Source of the DNA: Bacteroidales bacterium
GTDB taxonomy: Bacteria; Bacteroidota; Bacteroidia; Bacteroidales; PUMT01
Direction: 5' to 3'
Assembly (NCBI GenBank): GCA_007135095.1
Contig: SLJO01000198.1
Coordinates: 1-49,921 of the forward strand
Length of the DNA stretch: 49,921 nt
Positions 6,426-33,453 of this stretch are shown in pieces. Both the position numbers and the translations under genes were made by a program. The notes beneath the pieces are model-generated. The model did not search any database, had not been told where the DNA came from, and saw only the letters and a list, made by a program, of their open reading frames with translations. Within the stretch, counting starts at the first letter, position 1. Every line of letters begins with the position of its first letter.

Positions 6426-8339
6426 TTATCTTTGCGTCATAAGCTTGTTAATTGCATCCAGATTTTCTGAATTACAAATATCTTTAGCCTCGGTGGTGTA
6501 AAGATAGTTAATCCGATCCTTGTATTTTTCGGTAATCCTGCCTCTTACTATTTTCATGGTGCTGTTAAGTAAGGTGTTGCTTTCTGTAAATCCCTCATCG
6601 AGTACCCCTATTGAGGCCGGAAGCCAGCGCTGGGGGAACATCTTCTCGAACTTCCTGCCTATTCTGTATTCATTCAGTTCCATTTCAATAAGCTTAAGAA
6701 GTGCTTCCTGGCCCTCGAGGGTTTCAGGGCGGAGATTTTTTTCCTTAAGCCAGCGTTTCATTTCTTCCCTGTTCGGAACAATCAGGGCAATGGTATAGGG
6801 GTTTTGGTTGTTGTAGAGCATACATTGTTCTATGTACCGCGACTGTTCGGAAAAGGCTTCCTCTATACCTTCGGGACTGTATTTTTCACCATCGTCGGAG
6901 ATCAGCAGGCTTTTAAACCTCCCCAGCACATAAAGAAACCCGTCCTTATCCATATATCCCATGTCTCCGGTATAGAGCCACCCGTCAACAATGATTGATT
7001 CTGTTGCCTCCTGGTTTTTCCAGTATCCTTTCATCACATTTTCACCCCTGACAACAATTTCTCCTTTTTCTCCTGCAGGAAGTTCATTTCTGTTTTCATC
7101 GCAGATTCTGAGTTCCAGGTCACTGACAAGATAACCGGATGACCCCAGCTTGTGCCTGGATTCAGAATTGGACGAAATAATCGGCGATGCTTCTGATAAG
7201 CCGTATCCCTGGAACATCGGGATGCCCAGTGCATAAAAGAATCTCTGCAGTTCCAGGTCTAGCAATGCTCCGCCTCCAATAAAAAACCTTAACCTGCCGC
7301 CAAAATTTTCCCTTACCTTTTTAAATAATACGGCATCAAAGGCCTTAACCATGGGTTTGAGCAGTATCCTGAAACCCCTGCCCCTGTTCCATCCGTTACC
7401 ATTATAGGCATAGGCGGTTTTCAGGCCTGCATTAAACAGATGCTTTGCCAATTTACCCTTTTGCCGTACACCCCCCTCGATATTTTTTCTGAAATTCTTT
7501 GCCAGTGCAGGAACGCTAAGTAAAAATACCGGTTTTACTTCCTTTATATTCTGCGGAATATTTTTGAGCGTTTCCAGGGGTGTGTTGCCTGCCTGAATAG
7601 ATGCCATGCTGGCTCCGCTGGCTATAAGGGTGTATATGCCAGCGGTATGGGCAAAGGCATGGTCCCAGGGAAGGATAAGAAGAGTGGTGTACCACTGGGG
7701 CACATCCATCAGGCTCCTTGCCTGTTCAACATTTGCCGTATAATTCCGGTGTGAAAGAATTATTCCTTTCGGGTCGGCTGTTGTACCGGAAGTATAGCAG
7801 ATGTTGGCATAGTCATCACCCTTGATGGTGCTCCAGGATGCATTGAACTTGTCTGCATGATTTACCAGAAATTCTTTGCCCATCTGGCGGACGTCTTTGT
7901 AAAGGAGGTCCTTTGAATCCATTTCATCATAATGGTCCAGGAGGATAACCTTTTCAAGTTCCGGAAGTTCATGCTTCAGATTCCTGATCTTATGGGCATG
8001 TCCTCCTGAGATAATGATGATTTTTGAACCCGAGTGAGCAAGGCGGAACTTTATTTCCGAGGCATCGCCCAGTTTAACCGATAAAGGGATATTGATCGCA
8101 CCTGCATAAAGCACTCCGAGTTCAGATATTACCCAGTCATTCCTGCCTTCAGATAATAGGGCGATCCTGTCTCCTTTTTCCACACCCAAACTCATAAGTC
8201 CAGCGGCAAATTCAAAAACTGCCTTTCGGATATCGTGATAACTTGAACTTTCATAATCTTTTTGCCTTTTTTCAAGCATCAGCGGATTATTTCCATATTT
8301 TTTTACACTTTCCTCAAACAGTTCAATGATAGTCTGCAT
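6426..8339 (-). CDS. Long-chain fatty-acid--CoA ligase (AMP-forming)
   Basis: Activates fatty acids with ATP to acyl-AMP and then acyl-CoA. The 637-residue protein belongs to the adenylate-forming (ANL) superfamily. Visible motifs: the P-loop-like YTSGTTADPKG at 182-192, GYGLSEASP at 378-386, the TGDMGYMDKDGF motif at 457-468 and the hinge GRFKSLLISDDGEKYSPE at 473-490. A Lys in the C-terminal subdomain (STMKIVRGRI) is a candidate for the adenylation lysine. Length and the N-terminal region match the long-chain acyl-CoA synthetases (FadD15-like) common in Bacteroidetes, but chain-length preference is inferred. The gene appears to be transcribed alone: 78 bp separate it from the PASTA gene and a promoter candidate lies upstream. 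Confidence 0.9.
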   Translation of the reverse strand: MQTIIELFEESVKKYGNNPLMLEKRQKDYESSSYHDIRKAVFEFAAGLMSLGVEKGDRIALLSEGRNDWVISELGVLYAGAINIPLSVKLGDASEIKFRLAHSGSKIIIISGGHAHKIRNLKHELPELEKVILLDHYDEMDSKDLLYKDVRQMGKEFLVNHADKFNASWSTIKGDDYANICYTSGTTADPKGIILSHRNYTANVEQARSLMDVPQWYTTLLILPWDHAFAHTAGIYTLIASGASMASIQAGNTPLETLKNIPQNIKEVKPVFLLSVPALAKNFRKNIEGGVRQKGKLAKHLFNAGLKTAYAYNGNGWNRGRGFRILLKPMVKAFDAVLFKKVRENFGGRLRFFIGGGALLDLELQRFFYALGIPMFQGYGLSEASPIISSNSESRHKLGSSGYLVSDLELRICDENRNELPAGEKGEIVVRGENVMKGYWKNQEATESIIVDGWLYTGDMGYMDKDGFLYVLGRFKSLLISDDGEKYSPEGIEEAFSEQSRYIEQCMLYNNQNPYTIALIVPNREEMKRWLKEKNLRPETLEGQEALLKLIEMELNEYRIGRKFEKMFPQRWLPASIGVLDEGFTESNTLLNSTMKIVRGRITEKYKDRINYLYTTEAKDICNSENLDAINKLMTQR

Positions 8340-8419: not shown

Positions 8420-8799
8420 ATGTTTTGCCCGGATTGTCATAACAGGTTTCATACGATTAATTAAGGTTGTTATAATTTATATTTCAAATTTTATTTTTAT
8501 CTGTTCATATTTACCAGTTAATTTGCAGGATGGTAACCCGCCATGCAATGCTCATAGCCTTGTGCAATAACTTTTTATCAAGGGTCATTTCATGCTCAGT
8601 ATTTCACTCATTTAATACCCCCCCTGGTTTGTTGACTGCGTCGATTTCACATGCATTATTTCGTCTCGTTTTGCAATGGTTTTTGGATGTGAAATTCATG
8701 GCTTTTTATGTCATTCAGTGAGATGGGGGTTTCATGAGAACAAATTGGTCAGTTTTCCGACATAAAAGAGGCGGTTATCAAAAAAAATATTCAAATATT

Positions 8800-28314: not shown

Positions 28315-29340
28315 ATGCCGATTACCATACTTGGGATAGAATCTTCCTGTGATGATACAGCTGCTTCGGTAATCACCGATGGTATATTATGCTCCAATGT
28401 GATTGCAGGCCAGGATGTTCATATCAGGTACGGGGGAGTGGTGCCGGAACTGGCCTCCAGGGCTCACCAGCAAAATATCGTGCCCGTGGTGGACCTTGCC
28501 CTCCGGGAAGCAGGCATATCAAAGCATGATGTTTCTGCCGTGGGATTTACGCGCGGACCCGGACTAATGGGGTCATTGCTTGTAGGAACCTCTTTTGCCA
28601 AAGGATTTGCACTTGCAATGGATATTCCACTGGTGGAGGTTAACCACCTGCAAGCCCATATCCTTGTGCATTTTATCAGGGAACCCGGTATCAGTAAGGA
28701 ATTTCCATCTTTTCCCTTTATATGCCTTCTGGTTTCAGGCGGACATACCCAGCTTGTCCTTGTGAAGGACCACCTGTCAATGGAGGTTCTCGGGCAGACT
28801 ATTGATGATGCTGCAGGTGAGGCATTTGACAAGTGCGCCAAGATAATGGGATTACCCTACCCCGGGGGCCCCTGGATAGACAGGCATGCAAGGGATGGCG
28901 ATGCTGAAGCGTTCAGGTTTGCCCGCCCTTCAACAGGAAACCTTAATTACAGTTTCAGTGGCCTGAAAACATCCTTTTTGTATTTTGTACGTGATGCTGA
29001 GAAAAAGGATCCCGGTTTCCTTGAAAGGAATCTCAATGATCTTTGCGCATCGCTTCAGCATACCATAATACAGGTTCTTATGGTAAATCTCATTAATGCC
29101 TCGGAACTGACCGGCGTTAAGGAAATAGCCCTGGCTGGCGGGGTTGCCGCAAACTCCGGCTTGCGGAAAGCAGTGGCGGACTATGGAAAACAACACGGCA
29201 GACAGGTTTATATTCCCAGGCCGGCATTTACAACTGATAATGCCGCAATGATTGCCATCAATGCCTATTACAAGTACCTGAAAAATGAGTTCTCAGCACA
29301 GAATATTGTTCCTGAGGCCAGGTTGAAAATCAGTATTTAA
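28315..29340 (+). CDS. tsaD: tRNA N6-adenosine threonylcarbamoyltransferase TsaD
   Basis: Transfers the threonylcarbamoyl group to A37 of ANN-decoding tRNAs (t6A), with TsaB and TsaE. 341 residues of the Kae1/Qri7 ASKHA fold. Motifs: LGIESSCDDTAAS at the N terminus; the metal-binding pair in NHLQAH (His111, His115); VSGGHTQLVLV; DDAAGEAFDKCAKIMGLPYPGG; LAGGVAANSGLR; and TDNAAMIAI with the third metal ligand Asp. Divergent from tamB with a 118-bp gap. The last 11 bp overlap the 3' end of the convergent mini T9SS gene. Confidence 0.97.
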   Translation: MPITILGIESSCDDTAASVITDGILCSNVIAGQDVHIRYGGVVPELASRAHQQNIVPVVDLALREAGISKHDVSAVGFTRGPGLMGSLLVGTSFAKGFALAMDIPLVEVNHLQAHILVHFIREPGISKEFPSFPFICLLVSGGHTQLVLVKDHLSMEVLGQTIDDAAGEAFDKCAKIMGLPYPGGPWIDRHARDGDAEAFRFARPSTGNLNYSFSGLKTSFLYFVRDAEKKDPGFLERNLNDLCASLQHTIIQVLMVNLINASELTGVKEIALAGGVAANSGLRKAVADYGKQHGRQVYIPRPAFTTDNAAMIAINAYYKYLKNEFSAQNIVPEARLKISI

Positions 29341-29746
29341 CTACCCGGAAGGTTTTGGAGAATTGACCATCACTGGTAAACACCTTAAGCAGGTATGCAG
29401 ATCTCTGCAGGGACTGTATATCTATTTGTATGTGATTGCCGGAATCATCGGTTTTTTCAAGGCTGAGCCTTCTCCCGAAAAGGTCATACAATTCAACATG
29501 CATTTCCAGCTGCCTGGTTGTTTGCCATTCCACTCTTATAAAGTCAGTTGCCGGATTCGGATAGACTTTCAATTCAACGCCCTGCAGACCGCTGCCCTCA
29601 GTCATCGCAGTCTCCGGCTGCGGAAATTCTCCGGCAATGACCGGTTCGTTGCTGCTTTCAATCGAAGTTTCAGGGAATGAAACTGATTGTCCGGCCAGGT
29701 GAATGCAAAAACTCAGAAAAAATAAGAGGGTGTAGATATGTTTCAT
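29330..29746 (-). CDS. Small secreted protein consisting mostly of a T9SS sorting domain
   Basis: 138 residues. A Sec signal peptide (MKHIYTLLFFLSFCIHLAGQ, cleavage near AGQ-S), a ~38-residue acidic and Ser/Thr/Pro-rich linker, then a T9SS type A sorting domain from about 58 to the end (LKVYPNPATDFIRVEW, VELYDLFGRRLSLEK, YLLKVF, KTFRVVKY). No room remains for a cargo domain. The function is unknown: it could be a remnant of a larger cargo, a small surface adhesin, or a T9SS-associated accessory. Its stop lies inside the last codons of tsaD. A TAATTTTG box lies 46 bp upstream. Confidence 0.8.
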   Translation of the reverse strand: MKHIYTLLFFLSFCIHLAGQSVSFPETSIESSNEPVIAGEFPQPETAMTEGSGLQGVELKVYPNPATDFIRVEWQTTRQLEMHVELYDLFGRRLSLEKTDDSGNHIQIDIQSLQRSAYLLKVFTSDGQFSKTFRVVKY

Positions 29747-29799: not shown

Positions 29800-29942
29800 G
29801 AACACAAGACAACATTCTTTAACTATTTTTAAGGTTTCCTCTCACCATTGCATTCCTGCAGAGCGCAAGACCTGTAATTATGCATGATTTTACCCGGCAA
29901 AACTACAAAATTGCCCGCCCTGCCTTTCTTATTTATTATAAA

Positions 29943-30069
29943 AAATTTCGGTCGAAACCCGGTCGAAATTATTTTTTTAAGATCAGCCAATTTTACCACT
30001 GAACAGACGATTACAAGTAAGATTTTTTTATATTTGAAATTTTTCCGAAAGCCGGTCGGAATATTTTTT
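29943..30069 (+). repeat. Two copies of an operator-like element upstream of the first fadL gene
   Basis: Copy A (29943-29979) contains GGTCGAAA twice in direct orientation, 11 bp apart (29950-29957 and 29961-29968), and a 7-bp inverted pair AATTTCG/CGAAATT. Copy B (30037-30069) is a related sequence: CCGAAAGCCGGTCGGAA with arms TTCCG/CGGAA and the same T-rich tail. The shared core is CGAAA-n-CCGGTCG followed by an AT step and a T run. Copy B begins directly after the promoter box TATATTTG, where a repressor would block initiation. The 29747-30105 gap otherwise holds no gene. Confidence 0.55.
30029..30036 (+). promoter_or_regulatory. Candidate -7 box of the first fadL paralogue
   Basis: TATATTTG, exact TAnnTTTG match, 69 bp before the ATG at 30106 and directly followed by repeat copy B. 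No clear -33 element; a poor -33 would fit an activated or otherwise regulated promoter. Confidence 0.4.
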
Positions 30070-30105
30070 GTTTATTTACCCATTATTGCCCATTAACCTT
30101 AAACC

Positions 30106-31665
30106 ATGAATATGAGAAAACTTTTAATTTTAGCTGTTGCGGCGGGTTTTATGACCAACATAACCTATGCAGGCGGTATTATGACAAATACCAATCAAAG
30201 CGCTGCTTATATAAGAATGATGGCCCGGGATGCTTCCCTGGGAATTGATGCGGTCTATTACAACCCTGCCGGCCTTACCCGGCTTGGCGATGGATTGCAT
30301 TTATCACTCAATAACCAGTCTGTATACCAGACTCGTAAAATTGATAACTCCTTTGCCCTCCTGAATGACGGCTATTATCAGGGGGATGTCACAGCACCAC
30401 TTTTCCCCAGTATTTATGCCGTATACAAAACCGGGCGCATTGCCGTGTCAGGAGGGTTTATGCCTGTTGGCGGCGGGGGCGGAGCCGAATATAACAGGGG
30501 CCTTCCATCATTTGAGACCAATTTTGCTTCACTTCCCATGATGCTGTCTGCGCAGGGAATAAATACAAATGCCTATGATGTGGATATTGTCTTTGAAGGC
30601 TCTTCAATTTTTTTCGGTGGACAACTGGGAGTGAGCTATCAGCTTTCCGACATGGTGGATGTGTACGGGGGAGTCAGGTATGTTTCTGCCACCAATACCT
30701 ATAAAGGGCATCTGCGGAACTTGATGATTAATCCTGCGCATCCGTTGAATCCCGGAGGGGGAATGACCGGCGGCCAGGATTTCTTCAATTCAATTGCAAC
30801 AGTTACTTCAGGTGCCGCCCAAAGTGTACAGAGACTGATTGACGAAGACCTTGGCGGACTAACCCTTGATCAGGCAGTTGCTATGGTTCCCGATTTTACA
30901 GAGGCCCAGGCTGCCCAGCTGGCCGGAGGACTGGGCGATTCCTATAATGATCAACTGACCATTGCGCAGATCCAGGGAGCCTACCAGACAACCTCAGCCA
31001 CTGCGGCTGCTACTGCCGGTGAGCTTGCCGACAGGCGTGTTGATGCCAGGCAGACCGGCACAGCAATTGCCCCTTTGCTGGGAGTTAATGTTTCTTTCTC
31101 CGAGAGATTCAATATCGGTATAAAATATGAGTTCCTGACAAAGCTTGAACTTGAAAATGACACCGAAATCGATCAGACCGGGATGTTTCAGGATGGGGAT
31201 AAAACCCGGAGTGATATGCCGGCAATGCTGTCTGTAGGTGCTGCATACCGTGCAACACAAAAGCTGAATGTGGCTGCAGGCATGCATTACTATTTCGACA
31301 AATCGGCCGACTATGGCAAGGCCCTGCCAAACAAGGACATAATTGACAATAACTTCATTGAGCTTGCTCTGGGACTCGAGTATGATCTGACCGATAACCT
31401 GCTTGTCAGTGCCGGTTATCTTCGCACGCAAACAGGGGTGAATAAAAACTTTCACAGTGACCTGAGCCACAGTCTTTCTACAAATTCCATTGGCTTTGGG
31501 GGACGTTACTCAATAAATGAAATGATGGCTGTAAATCTTGGTTTTCTTAGAACATTTTATGAAGAAGATTCAATACAGCAGAATTTTGGCCTGCTGGGCA
31601 CTGCACACGAAATCTATAATCGTTCGGCAATGGTTGTTGCCATAGGTGTTGATTTCAAATTCTAG
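30106..31665 (+). CDS. FadL/OmpP1-family outer-membrane protein, paralogue 1
   Basis: 519 residues with a signal peptide (KLLILAVAAGFMTNITYA-G), an N-terminal hatch start (GGIMTNTNQSAAYIRMMAR) and the family's DAVYYNPAGLTRL segment, then barrel strands ending VVAIGVDFKF. FadL/TodX proteins move hydrophobic compounds such as fatty acids or aromatics across the outer membrane. Compared with its tandem neighbour it carries an extra stretch at about 210-305, Ala/Gln-rich and probably helical (LGGLTLDQAVAMVPDFTEAQ ... ATAAATAGELADRR), which would form a long extracellular or periplasmic loop. The acyl-CoA ligase at 6.4-8.3 kb could act on imported fatty acids, but the two are not linked. A terminator follows at 31687. 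Confidence 0.9.
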   Translation: MNMRKLLILAVAAGFMTNITYAGGIMTNTNQSAAYIRMMARDASLGIDAVYYNPAGLTRLGDGLHLSLNNQSVYQTRKIDNSFALLNDGYYQGDVTAPLFPSIYAVYKTGRIAVSGGFMPVGGGGGAEYNRGLPSFETNFASLPMMLSAQGINTNAYDVDIVFEGSSIFFGGQLGVSYQLSDMVDVYGGVRYVSATNTYKGHLRNLMINPAHPLNPGGGMTGGQDFFNSIATVTSGAAQSVQRLIDEDLGGLTLDQAVAMVPDFTEAQAAQLAGGLGDSYNDQLTIAQIQGAYQTTSATAAATAGELADRRVDARQTGTAIAPLLGVNVSFSERFNIGIKYEFLTKLELENDTEIDQTGMFQDGDKTRSDMPAMLSVGAAYRATQKLNVAAGMHYYFDKSADYGKALPNKDIIDNNFIELALGLEYDLTDNLLVSAGYLRTQTGVNKNFHSDLSHSLSTNSIGFGGRYSINEMMAVNLGFLRTFYEEDSIQQNFGLLGTAHEIYNRSAMVVAIGVDFKF

Positions 31666-31686
31666 CTGATTCCATTTCCATAACAA

Positions 31687-31715
31687 AAGGCTGTCCCTGT
31701 CAGGGACGGCCTTTT
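31687..31715 (+). terminator. Rho-independent terminator after fadL paralogue 1
   Basis: A 12-bp stem with one G-T pair (AAGGCTGTCCCT with AGGGACGGCCTT), 3-nt loop GTC, then further Ts. It lies 21 bp after the stop, so the two fadL genes are probably transcribed separately. Confidence 0.88.
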
Positions 31716-32070
31716 TGCGCATACGGATATCTCACAGGTGGCCGTGACCGGAGAAGTTCTTCAGGACTGCAGTTTGCGGGTTCCTTATTTGCGGGTATGC
31801 CCGAAACCGGCCTGAATTTGTGAGTTATTTTTTTGCTCAAAACTTTTTCTAATTCAAAAAATGAACTTAACTTTAAAGAAGGGCCGGGCAAATTAAAAAA
31901 TTAGTCCCGAACCGGATCGTGAATATTGATTTCGTTTTTCCGGAATCAGATGTTATGTAAGTGACATGATATTATTAAAATAAGGCTGACAAACTTTATT
32001 TGATGTTGCGGGCAACCTGGTGCTTGAGAATAACAATATTGTTAAGCATTTTTAATATAAATCATCATTT
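31716..32070 (+). promoter_or_regulatory. Intergenic region upstream of fadL paralogue 2 with operator-like sites
   Basis: 355 bp without a supported gene. At 31907-31932 is a degenerate third copy of the element found upstream of paralogue 1 (CCGAACCGGATCG then GAATATT). At 32031-32044 is a perfect 14-bp palindrome TAACAATATTGTTA, ending 26 bp before the ATG, where a repressor could act. No convincing TTTG/TAnnTTTG promoter pair is found. Confidence 0.4.
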
Positions 32071-33453
32071 ATGAGAAAATATTTTGTATTGCTTGTAACT
32101 GTAATTATTTCGGCGACGGCGGTATCTGCAGGCGGCATCTTTACAAATACCAACCAGAGTGCTTCTTTTATCAGAATGCCCTCAAGGGGTGCTTCTCTCG
32201 ATATTGATGCGGTATACTACAACCCGGCCGGCCTTACCAGACTTGCTGAGGGGTTGCATATATCACTGAATAACCAGTATATTTCCCAGAACCGGACAAT
32301 CACAAACAACATGTCGCCGCTGAATCAGAATGAATTTAAGGGCACTATGTCGGTTCCGGTTTTTCCCAGTGTTTACGCAGCCTATAAAACAGGAAACCTG
32401 GCTTTTTCCCTTGGCCTTAACATTATTGGCGGCGGCGGGGAAGTCGTATATGAAAACGGGCTGCCTTCAATTGAAACCTCAGTGGCAGCCCTCGTGCCTG
32501 CACTTGACCGTTATGGTGTTACGGGGTACAGAAACAATGTTTATTTTCAGGGATCCTCAGTATTTTACAGCGGACAGCTGGGTGCTTCCTTCGAGATGTT
32601 TAATATTGTTTCAGTATACGGTGGTGCACGTGTCGTTATGGCAGTCAATACTTACGAGGGTCATCTCAGAAATGTCCAGGTAAATACCCCTGAAGGATGG
32701 ATGAAACCCGGCACCTATTTAAGGGAGTTTGTTGCGCCGCTGCGGACCGGGGTGCAACAGAGGATTATCCTTGATGCGGCCAATTCCATAGATATTAGCA
32801 CCGCTGACAGCGAAGTCGATGTGTCTCAGAAGGGGAATGCCATTGCACCCATAGTGGGTTTAAGCATCAAGCCAAATGAGAGGCTTAATATCGGCGTAAA
32901 ATATGAGTTTTTGACTGAGCTGGAATTAAGGAATCAGACTGTTGCCGACGGCACCGGTTTATTTCCCCACGGGAGGACCTTCCGGAACGATTTGCCCGCC
33001 CTGCTATCGTTTGGGGCTGCATACCGGGCAACACCAAGGCTGAATGTTGCCGGCGGCATGCATTATTTCTTTGACATGGAGGCCAGTTACGGGAGGACCG
33101 TTGACGGGGCTCCTGCTGCCAACCAGGATCTAATTGACAATGATTTCATTGAGATCGCCCTTGGAGCTGAGTACCTCCTTACCGATGCCCTGATTGTCAG
33201 CGGGGGCTACCTTCGTTCACAGTCGGGGGTCAATGATAGATTCCAGAATGACATAAGCCATAGTCTCACTGCAAATAGTTTCGGAGTTGGCGGGCGAATT
33301 GCAATAAATGAAATGATCGCCGTGAACTTAGGGTTCATGATGTCATTATACGTTGAAGATTCAAGGAGATATTCCTATAGCGGCCTTTCAGTTACCGAGA
33401 GCTATAACCGTGACAATATGGCTGTAGCTCTCGGACTGGACCTGCGTTTTTAG
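32071..33453 (+). CDS. FadL/OmpP1-family outer-membrane protein, paralogue 2
   Basis: 460 residues: signal peptide (MRKYFVLLVTVIISATAVSA-G), hatch start GGIFTNTNQSASFIRM, DIDAVYYNPAGLTRL, and barrel ending VALGLDLRF. It aligns with the upstream gene almost end to end, so the two come from a tandem duplication. It lacks most of the Ala-rich helical insertion; between strands it has only a shorter segment (PGTYLREFVAPLRTGVQQR). Predicted role: uptake of a hydrophobic compound, perhaps different from paralogue 1 since the loops differ. It has its own upstream region with operator-like sequences. Confidence 0.9.
   Translation: MRKYFVLLVTVIISATAVSAGGIFTNTNQSASFIRMPSRGASLDIDAVYYNPAGLTRLAEGLHISLNNQYISQNRTITNNMSPLNQNEFKGTMSVPVFPSVYAAYKTGNLAFSLGLNIIGGGGEVVYENGLPSIETSVAALVPALDRYGVTGYRNNVYFQGSSVFYSGQLGASFEMFNIVSVYGGARVVMAVNTYEGHLRNVQVNTPEGWMKPGTYLREFVAPLRTGVQQRIILDAANSIDISTADSEVDVSQKGNAIAPIVGLSIKPNERLNIGVKYEFLTELELRNQTVADGTGLFPHGRTFRNDLPALLSFGAAYRATPRLNVAGGMHYFFDMEASYGRTVDGAPAANQDLIDNDFIEIALGAEYLLTDALIVSGGYLRSQSGVNDRFQNDISHSLTANSFGVGGRIAINEMIAVNLGFMMSLYVEDSRRYSYSGLSVTESYNRDNMAVALGLDLRF

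Follow-up and report, generated by a model that had tools for sequence, protein, structure and literature searches.

Predicted paired operators upstream of fadL and of an acyl-CoA synthetase gene in a genus of uncultured Bacteroidales

Two elements upstream of the fadL1 gene of an uncultured Bacteroidales bacterium, copy A and copy B, are very probably the paired operators of a fatty-acid regulon, as judged from the conservation of the element before fadL genes of the genus and from the same pair of boxes before a second gene, fadD1. The stretch of DNA that was analysed, referred to here as the window, is 49,921 nucleotides long and makes up one of the 286 contigs of a 4.0 Mb assembly. The named records closest to it are Bacteroidales MAGs with isolate names of the form CSSed..., and our reading of these names and of the search listing is that they originate from soda-lake sediment. 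The window carries two tandem genes of the OMPP1/FadL/TodX family on the forward strand, namely, fadL1 at 30106-31665, which codes for an outer-membrane protein of 519 aa (Pfam PF03349, 46 bits against a cut-off of 29.7), and fadL2 (paralogue 2) at 32071-33453, which codes for 460 aa (PF03349, 40.2 bits) and is 52% identical to fadL1. Transcription of fadL1 may end at an intergenic hairpin at 31685-31715 (+), an inverted repeat with a terminator-like match inside it, and the scan that flagged it gave 7 terminator-like matches in the region compared to 4.5 expected. A divergent gene for a small protein with a T9SS type A sorting domain (TIGR04183) is at 29330-29746 (-), and copy A, which sits between this gene and fadL1, could have a bearing on the promoter of that gene too.

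Copy A, the predicted distal operator, is at 29943-29979 (+) and holds two GGTCGAA half-sites as a direct repeat (29950-29956 and 29961-29967). Copy B, the predicted proximal operator together with a -7-like box, is at 30025-30078 (+) and its half-sites are TTTGAA (30033-30038), TCCGAA (30044-30049), and GGTCGGA (30054-30060). Inside each of the two copies TCGAA-type half-sites are 11 bp apart. The initial annotation had placed copy A at 29943-29979 and copy B at 30037-30069 and had described an 11-bp repeat in copy A, and the sequence reads as it claimed, with CGGTCGAAA at 29949 and again at 29960; a variant of it, CGGTCGGAA, was found at 30053 in copy B. The long core CGAAANCCGGTCG that had been proposed for the element is indeed present in both copies, at 29953 and 30046, but there is no third exact match in the whole 4.0 Mb assembly and the unit that is shared is the GGTCGAA-type half-site. 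With at most one mismatch, CGAAANCCGGTCG matched the genome 10 times compared to 20 times for the reversed control pattern, and the 8 matches besides those in copies A and B were all within ORFs of at least 80 aa. With at most two mismatches there were 6 matches in the window compared to 2.26 expected, and 6 matches were reached by 3 of 100 shuffles. The sequence TATATTTG, which had been taken for a promoter box, is found directly before copy B at 30029-30036 but as a promoter box it is not conserved. Its TTTGAA part precedes the next half-site by one 11-bp step, and in other genomes a third half-site is found at this position, for example TTCGAA in G003. Probably, TATATTTG is a third half-site and not a promoter.

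When paralogue 1 was searched against 13 genomes of the genus, relatives were found in 12. Fourteen fadL upstream regions were read and 12 of these, from 11 genomes, were used for a profile of copy B (R1); the two left out were that of paralogue 2 of the window, where the element is decayed, and that of G005, where there are 77 bp to the contig edge. Copy B is kept over 54 positions in the 12 regions, with a mean column identity of 79% and a 1-bp gap in G011a only. The conservation per 10-base block was 0.73-0.93 over 30026-30075 whereas, it was 0.32-0.65 over 29886-30025, and the distance from the last half-site of copy B to the TT(C/T)ATTT(G/A) box was constant within 1 bp in all 12 regions. 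Judged by this pattern of conservation, copy B is a phylogenetic footprint. A lack of conservation before orthologous fadL genes had been named in the initial annotation as the observation that would speak against a regulatory site, and when this was checked the element was found to be conserved in the genus. A counterpart of copy A was present 93-95 bp upstream of copy B in 6 of the 12 regions and in the other 6 there was none at 6 of 7 letters; the blocks of copy A in the 12-row alignment were at 0.47 and 0.65, which is barely above their surroundings. For a wider comparison, 92 related fadL loci were found in named genomes and the best 80 of them were used. Strong matches to the copy-B profile were found at 9 of the 80, all in the CSSed group, five with the exact GGTCGA and the rest with variants of it, and in the 71 loci outside this group there was no GGTCGA within 250 bp upstream. 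These 9 matches are mostly from the genomes of the genus set under their public names, and the 12 strong matches within the genus are the sites from which the profile was built, and therefore neither set lends independent support. The fadL contig of G005 starts inside the element and a second contig of this genome ends with the same element, next to tsaD-like and T9SS-type ORFs as in the window (by eye). Both contigs, L022 (G005:C347) and L145/L164 (G005:C149), stop within one and the same part of the element, which looks like a break in the assembly. In the tree the G005 fadL falls into a third lineage, beside L046 (100/100).

A second target was found with the exact pattern TCGAAN5GTCGAA, which matched 11 times in the 13 genomes. 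Eight matches were before fadL, one was at the G005 contig end, which probably leads on to fadL, one was inside a short ORF of G008, and one, in G006, was followed at 162 bp by a gene for a long-chain acyl-CoA synthetase (AMP-binding, PF00501); we termed this gene fadD1. Orthologues of fadD1 were found in 7 of the 13 genomes of the genus (84-100% identity) and two were found in a sister genus (67% identity), and all nine have two boxes upstream that are 96-98 bp apart, the spacing in the two sister-genus genes being 96 and 98 bp. In the seven genes of the genus the boxes are at -162 to -165 and at -66 to -68 from the ATG, and the proximal box of G010 reads GGTCTA. In the seven 250-bp stretches before fadD1, GGTCGA was found 14 times, and 2000 shuffles gave 0.077 on average and 3 at most. 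Of the 60 hexamers shared most widely, those that have at least 3 G/C and occur in all seven upstream regions were GGTCGA, GTCGAA, and their complements only. The proximal boxes of fadD1 have one clear half-site, and two half-sites 11 bp apart were seen, by the 6-of-7 rule, in the distal boxes of G006 and G012. In six genomes of the genus, that of the window included, fadD1 was not found, and in the window's genome fadL1 is the sole target seen. A second lineage of acyl-CoA synthetases (52-54% identity; G000, G002, G004, and G009) is without the paired-box layout, by eye, and its copy in G004 carries one GGTCGA. Another AMP-binding acyl-CoA synthetase gene (by eye) in the window itself, at 6426-8339 (-), was dropped as a target because it has no GGTCGA box in the 400 bp upstream. 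The suggestion of the initial annotation that the element is the binding site of a regulator of hydrophobic-substrate uptake is thus, at the level of predicted sites, well supported by the conservation before fadL together with the paired boxes of fadD1.

The two genes also share a register with respect to their probable promoters. Measured from the -7 box, the fadL cores are at -119 to -121, in the 6 genomes that have copy A, and at -26, and the fadD1 cores in the 9 upstream regions are at -121 to -122 and at -24 to -25. In G007 and G011a fadL the -26 core is absent and only a nearer core is shown; in G001 the box chosen by the script was 4 bp off and the corrected value agrees with the others. 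The spacing of the boxes is kept within 2 bp for each gene and differs by 1-5 bp between fadL and fadD1, and the DNA between the boxes has diverged. The probable -7 box of fadL1, at 30071-30078 (+), is TTTATTTA here and TT(C/T)ATTTG in the other 11 rows of the alignment, and it was placed by its constant spacing from copy B and by the shared register; that fadD1, with TATATTT(G/A), has the same register supports TT(C/T)ATTTG as the fadL -7 box. The -7 consensus of Bacteroidetes is given as TAnnTTTG in the excerpted text of PMC7366714. As far as that excerpt describes the sigma-ABfr promoters, fadD1 TATATTT(G/A) and fadL TT(C/T)ATTT(G/A) resemble them and are at the expected place, but the A at the second position is absent from the fadL box. 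No TTTG was recognised by eye in the -33 region of fadL.

The initial annotation had also proposed that the motif be scanned for in the genome and in related genomes, where matches scattered at random in coding DNA would count against it, and the scans that were run do not refute it. It is the location of the matches that counts and not their number, since the reversed controls matched about as often or more often genome-wide: 49 compared to 11 for TCGAAN5GTCGAA, 47 compared to 20 for GGTCGAN{86,92}GGTCGA, and 28 compared to 35 for GGTCGAN{10,22}TWNATTTG. The 20 matches of GGTCGAN{86,92}GGTCGA in the 13 genomes were before fadD1 (6) and fadL (1), in ORFs (12), and at one unassigned place (G002:C234), the 13 outside fadD1 and fadL all having been viewed. 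The 35 matches of GGTCGAN{10,22}TWNATTTG were before fadL (6), fadD1 (5), and a TetR gene (3), in a dispersed repeat (7), and elsewhere (14); 12 of these 14 were viewed, and 2 of the 7 in the repeat were judged by their letters only. The informative matches of the R1 profile were the G005 contig end (E 0.0016), copy A, which is the second-best match genome-wide though it was absent from the building of the profile (E 0.01), and the distal box of G006 fadD1 (E 0.049). When 20 weaker matches were viewed, 18 were in ORFs of at least 70 aa, the exceptions being L154 and the match at the G005 contig end, L145; among the 18, L151 and L153 are in short ORFs close before a longer gene and may be intergenic. 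There was no recurring gene among the 20, and the search for a wider regulon with R1 gave no further clear promoter matches in the genus. The dispersed repeat is about 100 bp long and occurs in several genomes of the genus, at 8621-8719 in the window (75% identity over 101 bp, E 3.6e-12) and in L015 (upstream of G004 fadL), L124, L186, L187, L188, L198, and L213. Close to one of its ends is GGTCGA(A/T)(C/T)TCACATG, and its interior has GATGTGA(A)(A); with its GGTCGA and TTCATTTG the repeat accounts for the 7 matches mentioned above.

Before paralogue 2 the element is at 31898-31932 (+) and aligns with copy B only through several gaps. Its score against copy B was reached by none of 1000 shuffles and by none of 117 other segments of the window, and the copy-B profile misses it, the best overlapping match being 2.8 bits at 31934. 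An A-like match before paralogue 2 was not significant (31 of 1000 shuffles and 7 of 117 segments). Judged by this gapped alignment, paralogue 2 is preceded by a decayed relic of the element. The element that had been described as common to both tandem genes is thus real in origin at paralogue 2 but is decayed there, and in the window its working form would be found only at fadL1; paralogue 2 therefore probably escapes this control. In the tree the lineage of paralogue 1 is supported at 100/100 and that of paralogue 2 at 95/94, with paralogue 2 itself beside G007 (87/59), and the paralogue 2 lineage adjoins two MAGs outside the group (91/97). Copy B is kept before the genes of this lineage in G007, G011 (G011b), G001, and G008.

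The initial annotation had offered as a second possibility that the copies are functionless relics of the gene duplication. This is true of the decayed copy before paralogue 2, but for copies A and B it is hardly credible since copy B is kept across species and the fadD1 promoters have the same boxes in the same register. A role of the elements as terminator or attenuator, in the form of RNA hairpins with a T run behind them, is also very improbable. A simple scan does flag both copies as terminator-like, and 82.3% of the cells of the inverted repeat of copy B are paired over the 12 rows, but this pairing was reached by 86 of 500 shuffles and the weak covariation by 82 of 500, and at the elements no Rfam family was matched. 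The attenuator was set aside because the covariation is not above that of shuffles, because each proximal fadD1 box is a single half-site with no pair of hairpin arms (by eye), and because a -7-like box is downstream of copy B. A real but rather doubtful alternative is an activator, such as one of the OmpR/PhoB or SARP type, which would bind the tandem 11-bp direct repeats next to the -7 box and take over the role of a -33 element in recruiting RNA polymerase, with another activator at the distal site. Exact TCGAA words upstream of fadL are most often 11 bp apart (12 pairs), and about 10 bp separate the end of the last fadL half-site from the -7-like box, which is similar to the 8 bp between SARP repeats and the -10 box in the excerpted text of PMC10936776. 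When direct and inverted repeats were counted in 11 of the 12 copies B (G011a, with its 1-bp gap, was left out) and in 6 copies A, copy A was nearer to a direct repeat (6.7 of 8 positions direct compared to 4.5 of 8 inverted) whereas, copy B was nearer to an inverted repeat (6.4 of 8 inverted compared to 5.0 of 8 direct). As copy A is direct-like and copy B is inverted-like, symmetry does not decide between a repressor and an activator. The single clear half-site in each proximal fadD1 box does not suit the activator and, moreover, an activator has no need of the narrow spacing of about 95 bp between the two sites.

As to the regulator itself, there was no evident candidate near fadL among the ORFs of at least 100 aa between 25000 and 37000; from 1 to 24000 the listing covered ORFs of at least 180 aa. 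In four stretches that were viewed around fadD1 only a small MerR-like ORF (by eye) was seen, in two of them and at a distance of about 5 kb. In other systems, several repressors of fatty-acid genes belong to the TetR family. A TetR-family protein encoded beside rnr (L034, G000:C266, in the window's own genome), which has a TetR_N domain, might repress fadL and fadD1 and also, in a part of the genomes, the gene that encodes it. No other regulator gene was seen downstream of the matches of the three pattern scans (with 33 of the 35 matches of one scan viewed), and GGTCGA was found 10-11 bp before a TAAATTTG box or a similar one in 4 of 8 readable upstream regions of the TetR gene. We nevertheless consider this protein an unlikely regulator, since the box is absent from the other 4 of the 8 regions, that of the window's own genome included, and where ORFs were checked the box lies within the last codons of rnr. 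Moreover, the TetR gene was not found in G002, G006, and G011, and of these G006 and G011 carry the boxes. The predicted structure of the protein had a mean pLDDT of 68.8, which is too weak for comparison. The TetR gene directly follows rnr in L034, L192, L193, L200, and L239 (G000:C266 and relatives), the protein is 83-88% identical to that of the own genome in the 7 relatives that were aligned, and GGTCGAAAA is present at the rnr end in 4 of 8 readable upstream regions.

Returning to the paired operators, the boxes, their conservation, their narrow spacing, their shared register, and the two target genes are read from the sequence, and from these we infer that a DNA-binding regulator, the same one for both genes, would serve fadL (outer-membrane uptake) and fadD1 (acyl-CoA synthetase) in this genus, and the boxes before fadD1 were seen in the sister genus as well. 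The proximal core would lie over the expected -33 region, 25-26 bp before the -7 box, and the distal core is about nine helical turns further upstream. The kept spacing suggests that the two bound sites may be in contact through a DNA loop. The most likely regulator is a repressor, which would cover the -33 region and be released by a fatty acid or an acyl-CoA; looping and release are proposed from the kept spacing and by analogy with FadR of E. coli. In the window's genome fadL1 keeps both sites, and paralogue 2 would have lost its working site. That the control is repression is a guess, for which the chances are about equal either way, and the statement as a whole, i.e., distal and proximal operators of one fatty-acid regulator with a looping repressor included, has in our estimate an even chance of being correct.

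The motif of E. coli FadR, a regulator from a different phylum, is presumably unrelated to the present boxes. The likeness between the two systems is in having two operators before exactly the genes for uptake and activation. In the excerpted text of PMC3460868, fadL and fadD are the only fad promoters of E. coli with two FadR sites, the sites being separated by 68 bp at fadD and 8 bp apart at fadL, and oleoyl-CoA releases FadR, whereas, here the spacing is wide and nearly equal at both genes, 93-98 bp from start to start. The same site stands before several fatty-acid genes, as in a fad regulon, in that it is found at fadL and fadD1, and two sites, as with FadR, were found in 9 of 9 regions at fadD1 and in 6 of 12 at fadL. 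The boxes of the SARP (AfsR-type) regulators of Streptomyces are alike in having 11-bp repeats close to the -10 or -7 box, but, going by the excerpted text of PMC10936776, they differ from the present arrangement, in which a second site is about 95 bp upstream, copy B is nearly a palindrome, and both the pathway and the phylum are other ones. No description of the control of fatty-acid genes in Bacteroidetes was found in the open-licence literature searched with a few terms; paired fad operators are known as a kind, and the motif, the lineage, and a regulator of this sort were not met in that literature. It may well be, with the odds evenly balanced, that this is a fatty-acid regulon of uncultured Bacteroidales with paired operators about nine turns apart, convergent with the layout of E. 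coli FadR. If this is true, a regulon of uncultured bacteria would be provided with a motif, two promoters under its control, and a spacing rule that can be tested, and paired operators at exactly fadL and fadD would be known from a second case.
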